Source: Balneolaceae bacterium (lineage in GTDB: Bacteria > Bacteroidota > Rhodothermia > Balneolales > Balneolaceae). Taken from it: 61,992 nt of DNA. Where the stretch lies: the NCBI GenBank assembly GCA_007694095.1, contig RECI01000226.1, positions 1 through 61,992 on the forward strand, read 5' to 3'. The position numbers were made by a program, and so were the translations under genes. A model generated the notes under the pieces. That model saw only the letters and a program-made list of their open reading frames with translations. It did no database searches and was not told where the DNA came from. Positions 949 through 3,206 of this stretch are shown here, one piece after another. Position 1 is the stretch's first letter; each line of letters opens with the position of its first letter.

Positions 949-2712
949 ATGTCAAATCATTACCGGGCATTAACCCGAACATACCGGCCACAAACATTTG
1001 ATGATGTTGTATCCCAAGAGCATGTTAGCAGCACGCTTAAAAATGCCATCAATCAAAACCGCCTCTCCCACGCCTATATGTTTTGCGGCCCGCGGGGTGT
1101 GGGAAAAACCACTATGGCCCGTGTGCTGGCCCGTGCTATCAACCAGATTGATGAGGCTGTTGACGGCGAAGCCCTAAGCCAAACCCTGAACGTTGTAGAA
1201 ATTGATGCCGCATCGAATAATAAGGTAGAAGATGTACATCACCTAAGGGAAATTGTGAGGGTTCCTCCGCAAAGCGGAAAGTACAAGATTTTTATCATTG
1301 ATGAGGTACACATGCTCAGCAAGCAGGCTTTTAACGCCCTGCTGAAAACACTTGAAGAACCTCCTGCTCATGCTATTTTCATTTTTGCCACTACTGAACC
1401 GCATAAGGTGCTGCCCACTATTCTATCGCGTGTACAGAGGTTTGATTTCAAGCGGATAAGTATTGATGAAATCATGAACCGCCTGCGGGTTATTTGTGAA
1501 AAGGAGGGTATCAAGATTGACGAAGAATCACTACATACCATTGCGCGAAAAGCTGATGGTGCCTTGAGGGATGCGCTCGGACTTATGGACCAGGCCGTGG
1601 CATTTTGCGGGATGGATATCAAATATGAACAACTAATCTCGGCTCTGAATGTAGTTGGTAATGATGATTTATTTGAGGTTACAAAAGCTGTAATTGAACG
1701 CAATCCAAAAAATGGCCTTTTGTTGATAGACCGTTTAATGAAAGATGGTACTGACATTCAGGAATTCCTGGTTTCAATGACAACACACCTGCGTAATTTG
1801 TACGTTGCAAAGCAGGAAACCGGCCAGCACCTGATAGAGGCAACTGAAGACACGCGACAGCGATATTTCGAAACAGCGGCCGCATTTTCTGAAGAAGACC
1901 TTATGAGAATGCTTCATCTTGTAAGTGAAGCCCAGATAAAAATAAAGGAGGTACAACAACCACGGGTACATTTCGAAATTCTTATCCTCAAACTGATTCA
2001 CCTGAGCCGGATTAAAGAGCTATCCGAACTGGTTGAGGGGCTAAACCATTTAAAAAAAAACTCCAATATCCGGCAAACTGAAAATTTAGGGGATAATTCA
2101 GGGCCTGTTACCTTTACTCCCCCAATAACAGAACTCAGAAGTAATGTGGAAAAGGAACAGGAAATCCAGGCAAAAGCCCCTGAAAGTTCTGAACCTGCCC
2201 AAAGTGACTCCGATAACGACGATGATTTTGATGAACTTTTAACCGGTAAACCAAGCCTCGGGTTTGCTAAAGGAATCAGTTCTAAAAATGGCAATCATGA
2301 TTCCGGTGAAAATAATAACTTGGTGGTTTTCCGGGAGATGAAAACTGCTAAAGGGCTTGACGAAATTGAAGACGGTTGGCCGGAATTTTTAGAGCTGATA
2401 AAAGAGAATGGCTCTAAAACGCTATTCCATCAACTCGAAAATGTAAAACTGAAAAAACTGAAGGGGAGTGAATTAACGATATCCGTGAACAATATGTTTG
2501 CGTCAAATCTTGTTGAAGAGAATAAAATCCTGCTCTCTTCACTACTCAAAGAAGCAGTCGGGATTCATATTCGCCTGAATTGTGTTGTTGAAAGGCAGAA
2601 TTCAGTATCAGCAGACTCTTTGAGCCCGTATGAGCAGTTCAGGGAATTGCAAAAAAAAGATCCCCACCTTAAAACCATAGTGGAACTTTTTGGCGCTGAA
2701 CTGGAATATTAA
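949..2712 (+). CDS. dnaX: DNA polymerase III subunit tau/gamma
   Basis: Clamp-loader ATPase of DNA polymerase III, 587 residues from the ATG at 949. A longer open frame starts at 892, but homology begins at MSNHYRALTRTYRPQTFDDV. Walker A is GPRGVGKTT, Walker B is IDEVHM, and the sensor-1 region is FATTEPHK. The SRC motif reads SRVQRF, with Cys replaced by Val. The zinc module that normally follows Walker A is shortened and has no cysteines between VLARAINQ and EIDAASNN. The C-terminal half (from ~370) is low-complexity acidic followed by a tau-like domain. An A9 run at 2052-2060 lies at the domain III/IV boundary and may give a gamma product. It leads the conserved dnaX-ybaB-recR cluster. Confidence 0.95.
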   Translation: MSNHYRALTRTYRPQTFDDVVSQEHVSSTLKNAINQNRLSHAYMFCGPRGVGKTTMARVLARAINQIDEAVDGEALSQTLNVVEIDAASNNKVEDVHHLREIVRVPPQSGKYKIFIIDEVHMLSKQAFNALLKTLEEPPAHAIFIFATTEPHKVLPTILSRVQRFDFKRISIDEIMNRLRVICEKEGIKIDEESLHTIARKADGALRDALGLMDQAVAFCGMDIKYEQLISALNVVGNDDLFEVTKAVIERNPKNGLLLIDRLMKDGTDIQEFLVSMTTHLRNLYVAKQETGQHLIEATEDTRQRYFETAAAFSEEDLMRMLHLVSEAQIKIKEVQQPRVHFEILILKLIHLSRIKELSELVEGLNHLKKNSNIRQTENLGDNSGPVTFTPPITELRSNVEKEQEIQAKAPESSEPAQSDSDNDDDFDELLTGKPSLGFAKGISSKNGNHDSGENNNLVVFREMKTAKGLDEIEDGWPEFLELIKENGSKTLFHQLENVKLKKLKGSELTISVNNMFASNLVEENKILLSSLLKEAVGIHIRLNCVVERQNSVSADSLSPYEQFRELQKKDPHLKTIVELFGAELEY

Positions 2713-3112: not shown

Positions 3113-3206
3113 CAGGAATATTAATTTTTGAGTGTGAATTCTGAATCAATGAATAAAGAAATGTATTCCATTCAGATTTTTTTTTACTCACCATTCATTT
3201 TTTTTG

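Follow-up and report, generated by a model that had tools for sequence, protein, structure and literature searches.

Several routes to a short gamma form of DnaX beside tau have been described. The A9 run of the Thermus dnaX gene is the precedent for slippage (PMC1088944; PMC5009743), and for Thermus thermophilus slippage, RNA heterogeneity and a product ratio of approximately 1:1 have been measured. In Escherichia coli a -1 shift occurs at A AAA AAG, accompanied by a Shine-Dalgarno-like stimulator and a hairpin (PMC3711429). In Caulobacter no nucleotide signal is needed and gamma results from proteolysis of tau (PMC5009743). Two-ORF dnaX genes were first described by Antonov et al. in 2013, who proposed transcriptional realignment; their set comprises 17 genes in 12 genera, nine of them with A10, and the Chlorobi carry A7-A9 (PMC3711429). 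A literature search of partial coverage found no paper on Balneolaceae dnaX, and on Bacteroidetes dnaX frameshifting it found PMC3711429 alone to treat dnaX recoding. Judged from this partial literature, poly-A dnaX is a known kind of device whose breadth in Bacteroidota seems under-described.

The dnaX gene examined here belongs to a Balneolaceae bacterium and resembles that of T. thermophilus: the A9 lies within a single long reading frame for tau, both alternative frames are closed early, and the predicted gamma would slightly exceed the clamp-loader core in length. Thermus belongs to another phylum and its slippage was measured, whereas for the present gene it is predicted from sequence; a further difference is that the run here stands at 63%. 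As in E. coli, the short gamma predicted here has the core only and arises at an A-rich site lying between the core and the tau domains, but the gene lacks a conserved stimulator or hairpin, its run is longer and its +1 frame is also closed. The end product predicted here, a short DnaX form, is also that of Caulobacter, from which this gene differs in having a selected nucleotide signal. The comparative analysis indicates that the A9 run is very probably a selected programmed slippage site, from which dnaX would give rise to two clamp-loader subunits, most likely through RNA polymerase.

The dnaX gene and its protein

The window, meaning the whole 61,992-nt stretch of DNA analysed, comes from a fragmented assembly (4.56 Mb in 324 contigs). 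Its features are listed in Table 1. The tau product, with a computed mass of 66.4 kDa, matches the TIGR02397 dnaX_nterm profile over residues 5-349 with 397 bits (cut-off 250), contains the Walker A motif GPRGVGKTT and is encoded in the gene order dnaX-ybaB-recR, with ybaB/ebfC and then recR downstream; profile, motif and neighbourhood together identify it as DnaX. The closest named loci are those of Rhodohalobacter sulfatireducens and other Balneolaceae.

Table 1. Features of the dnaX locus in the window (positions are those of the window)
Feature	Position	Strand	Basis or remark
dnaX CDS, tau form, 587 aa	949..2712	+	TIGR02397 dnaX_nterm profile match
Coding region for the body of the predicted gamma (AAA+ core with collar)	949..2061	+	AlphaFold
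GAGGGG, Shine-Dalgarno-like, 11 bases before the run	2035..2040	+	present here, not conserved
A9 slippery run	2052..2060	+	in-frame heptamer A AAA AAA at 2052-2058
Disordered linker, residues 372-467	2062..2349	+	pLDDT < 50 throughout
TGA, nearest stop once one A is added or the frame shifts by -1 (predicted gamma of 377 aa)	2079..2081	+	
TAG, nearest stop once one A is lost, two are added or the frame shifts by +1 (predicted gamma of 379 or 380 aa)	2087..2089	+	
Folded tau-specific C-terminal domain, residues 468-587, missing from predicted gamma	2350..2709	+	

An AlphaFold model built on relatives places the last core helix at residues 352-371, ending at the A9 run, in agreement with the original prediction that the run marks the end of the clamp-loader core. 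The tau C-terminal domain is modelled as helices and strands at residues 470-581, mostly with pLDDT of 70-86 and a dip at residues 550-557, and it finishes in the conserved DnaX tau end (...FRELQKKDPHLKTIVELFGAELEY). Since the run occupies codons 368-371, a frame change there spares the whole folded core and removes precisely the linker plus the tau domain.

A four-cysteine zinc module in domain I is typical of DnaX, though not obligatory. Residues 53-90 of the window protein are without this module, and its cysteines number zero in 116/116 Balneolales DnaX proteins scored, four to five in other Rhodothermia and only one in 21 other Bacteroidota genes. This distribution suggests that the cysteines were lost separately in Balneolales and in other Bacteroidota. 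Because the TIGR02397 match and synteny hold, the missing module is read as a clade-specific loss and not as exclusion from DnaX.

The A9 run and the predicted short products

The run is read in the phase CAT TTA AAA AAA AAC, which places the heptamer A AAA AAA in frame over codons 368-370, numbered from the ATG at 949. The original prediction had located the run, this heptamer and both closing stops exactly to the base. The Thermus-type arrangement, in which one ORF carries at least nine A's where core meets tau and both non-zero frames have near stops, is thus present in the sequence. One extra A would yield a product of 377 aa and 43.0 kDa ending LKKKLQYPAN, one A fewer a product of 379 aa and 43.1 kDa, and two extra A's a product of 380 aa and 43.2 kDa; the latter two would both end in TPISGKLKI. 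The anticipated second product of approximately 377 residues therefore stands, together with those of 379 and 380, whereas its mass of approximately 41 kDa is revised to approximately 43 kDa.

Within the 62 kb window the A9 is the sole intragenic run of nine or more A's or T's. The only other such A/T run in the window is an intergenic T9 at 3177-3185 in the ybaB-recR gap. Raw A9 positions across the 4.56 Mb assembly number 95 and 102 on the two strands, with coding and non-coding sites pooled. Many bacterial genomes start to avoid such runs once they reach nine bases (PMC1088944). The A8 reported earlier at 2651-2658 is present as well; it encodes a conserved QKKD, occurs at the same place in few relatives only and was rejected as part of the signal.

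Conservation in the genus and family

Of 28 genomes from the window's genus, one gave no match for dnaX or recR, the region being absent from its sequence; the others yielded 27 dnaX genes, every one of which keeps the run. Among distinct Balneolaceae dnaX genes, 82/87 contain at least nine A's within 60 codons after the core and 79/87 have A9 or A10 at the identical codon. The refuting observation named in advance, that close relatives would lack the run, is accordingly not borne out. The linker around the run can hardly be aligned among Balneolaceae, so a run fixed within it stands out.

Codon usage at the run is uniform. Where the run sits at codon 368, as it does in 79 genes of the family, its two lysines are encoded by AAA in 158/158 codons, compared with 40-83% for eight conserved core lysines. 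The preceding codon is TTA, GTA, CTA, ATA or GCA in 79/79, the residue varying among Leu, Val, Ile and Ala while the third base A is fixed, and the codon following the two lysines is AAC, AAG or AAA, again in 79/79. When the protein was held fixed and synonymous codons were redrawn, a mean of 16.6 Balneolaceae genes (maximum 25) had at least nine A's in the linker, against the 82 observed.

The run at codon 368 is lost in Balneolaceae genus g19. Four loci of genera g19 and g9 (L098, L099, L079 and L091) are without it and have A9 or A10 at codons 394, 394, 411 and 404, respectively, as if the site had moved down the linker.

Stops in both alternative frames

Among genes with the run and tau in frame, the two other frames both reach a stop inside 20 codons for 97.5% of the Balneolaceae (43% under a null of codon shuffling) and for 97% of other Bacteroidota (null 46%). 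To limit the effect of shared ancestry, 57 Balneolaceae representatives below 80% core DNA identity were chosen. A -1 stop falls within 10 codons in 56 of these 57 (null mean 39.8) and a +1 stop in 51 (null mean 16.4, maximum 30 in 400 shuffles), with offsets at many different positions. When one gene was taken per group, both stops lay within 20 codons in 89% of 27. The alignment of relatives' dnaX genes proposed earlier as a check thus finds the early stops conserved along with the position of the run.

Control genes with no run exhibit at most a small excess of double early stops, with 43% in other Bacteroidota (null 36%) and 6% in other Rhodothermia (null 11%). In the first of these run-less sets, the mixed Bacteroidota, the distance to the +1 stop taken alone is somewhat short (median 6.3 vs 17.3), and part of the early +1-stop signal may therefore have another cause.

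Distribution across Bacteroidota

For the phylum-wide comparison 360 distinct dnaX genes were collected. Runs of at least nine A's number 0 in the DnaX cores (382 kb) and 194 in the linkers (64 kb), and no T run of this length was found in any DnaX region scanned in this set. Core A-run lengths decay, with none past A8, while linker lengths fall to A8 and then form a second peak at 9-11, with none longer; runs of seven or eight are rare in linkers. In other Bacteroidota, outside Balneolaceae and Rhodothermia, 104/171 genes contain at least nine A's (null mean 36.0, maximum 49). The phase of the run is 0, 1 or 2 depending on the clade, and its distance from the core varies among these other Bacteroidota.

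The run was found in none of 70 genes from other Rhodothermia families, and together with the loss of the codon-368 run in g19 this indicates that gamma production by a poly-A run is not universal. Prevotella/Bacteroidaceae loci (e.g. L202, L217 and L176) also have no A run at the tau/gamma boundary. Gamma in these lineages and in the other Rhodothermia is either absent or made by another route.

Reversed layouts

In 34 genes with a run of A9-A11 the layout is reversed: frame 0 terminates a few codons past the run and tau goes on in another frame, which is the -1 frame in 33 and the +1 frame in one. Two of these, G089 and G090 (loci L096 and L093), belong to the window's own family and have an A10 run in the context GCA AAA AAA AAA GAT TAA; their -1 frame encodes the C-terminus of tau (...FEAFKEIQQ...AELVKRFGAELKQ). 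At least 11 switches between the two layouts, tau in frame and reversed, are required by a tree built from 359 cores. A reversed gene can give full tau only through a change of frame at the run, and this speaks most strongly for a functional run. Assembly error was considered as the source of these layouts and is unlikely, given that they occur in whole families and in single-contig genomes with stops right after the run.

These two genes and the 32 other reversed ones, with A9-A11 at the junction, share the layout of the two-ORF genes of Antonov et al., and the window gene differs from that set in having tau in one frame. The present comparison adds that the two layouts interconvert at least 11 times and that reversed members occur in the window's family. 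Breadth in Bacteroidota and repeated layout switching are what extends the finding beyond a single gene.

Two Crocinitomix MAG loci (L231 and L232) are also reversed, frame 0 ending 13 codons after the core anchor and tau being open in -1; their overlap contains no A run of eight or more and reads TTA AAA AGT AAA CAA GCA TCT TAA G.

Proposed mechanism and alternative explanations

RNA polymerase would slip on the A9 run and produce mRNAs of varying A number. Those with nine A's, or nine plus or minus a multiple of three, would be translated into the 587-aa tau, and those with other numbers would reach the TGA or the TAG within ten codons and give a gamma of 377-380 aa ending just past the last core helix. 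Transcriptional slippage is favoured by the early stops in both frames, the length of 9-11, the clade-variable phase and the lack of a conserved Shine-Dalgarno sequence or hairpin, and slippage that adds one or two A's accounts for both stops and the -1 bias together. The tau/gamma slippage layout of the original prediction, which had left Thermus-like and E. coli-like routes side by side, is supported by the conservation of run and stops, and the comparative data lean towards the transcriptional route. The presumed slippage in this organism, its transcriptional level, the tau:gamma ratio and any use made of gamma are matters that we infer from these comparisons.

The alternative that survives best is programmed -1 ribosomal frameshifting on A AAA AAA in the manner of E. 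coli, in which some ribosomes would stop at the TGA and release the 377-aa gamma. An in-frame A AAA AAR heptamer is indeed present in TTA AAA AAA AAC, and it counts against the preferred reading that any run of at least nine A's holds an in-frame A AAA AAA on which the ribosome could shift -1 too. The nearly invariable early -1 stop fits such a shift, as does the -1 frame of tau in 33 of the 34 reversed genes, although insertion of a single A gives the same frame and an identical 377-aa product. The heptamer needs only seven A's, however, yet 9-11 are kept and seven or eight are rare. Early +1 stops are selected too, and they point away from a pure -1 ribosomal shift because such a shift alone predicts none.

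The accessory signals of an E. coli-like cassette, Shine-Dalgarno sequence and hairpin, were tested against shuffles and are unsupported. No downstream stem-loop was detected in 60 nt windows (z = +0.08 for the window gene, mean z = -0.26 for the family, 6% of the family below z -2). Upstream Shine-Dalgarno-like 4-mers are modestly commoner than expected in Balneolaceae (35/82 vs 22.7), but those of five or more bases are not conserved (10/82 vs 8.1 expected). The GAGGGG upstream of the run, likened earlier to the E. coli signal, exists in the window gene and is missing in most members of the genus; by this comparison it is probably not a working stimulator. In E. coli itself, A AAA AAG is far more prone to shifting than either A AAA AAA or A AAA AAC (PMC5009743). 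Ribosomal frameshifting as the source of gamma is thus judged unlikely.

A second alternative is that the protein alone is constrained, the end of the collar helix preferring Leu-Lys-Lys-Asn/Lys and the run being a by-product of AT-leaning codons. LKK is conserved and two-thirds of the lysine codons of dnaX genes are AAA, but the run lysines are AAA without exception, the third base of the preceding codon stays A while its residue changes, and the run is far in excess of expectation with the protein fixed. Neither the early stops in both frames nor the reversed layouts, in which tau depends on a change of frame at the run, follow from the protein sequence. Synonymous resampling and the codon counts rule out a chance or protein-driven run, and this explanation is highly improbable. 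Barely credible is a contingency locus in which replication slippage would make the tract length differ between cells and switch tau on and off, since, although relatives can differ by one A and the layout has switched repeatedly, length is held at 9-11 and codon position is fixed family-wide, off-states would be costly because tau is normally needed, and layout switching is better read as tolerated while slippage still supplies both products.

Implications for the family and phylum

Slippage of RNA polymerase on A9-A11 is, with reasonable likelihood, the standard and repeatedly maintained source of gamma and tau across much of Bacteroidota. The layout would be nearly neutral, because slippage yields both products in either arrangement, and would have flipped at least 11 times; some lineages, among them the Prevotella/Bacteroidaceae loci and most Rhodothermia, would have lost the site and may now produce only tau or obtain gamma by other means. 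By this account, the annotated DnaX of many genomes looks truncated or split though the gene is intact. Relatives with tau in frame and with the reversed layout form clean natural pairs for measuring transcriptional slippage. The general bacterial need for a short gamma is disputed, mainly on the basis of E. coli, and a poly-A switch retained in many sampled families of a large phylum, with both frames closed and with reversed layouts unable to yield tau otherwise, argues on comparative grounds that selection favours the possession of both forms.
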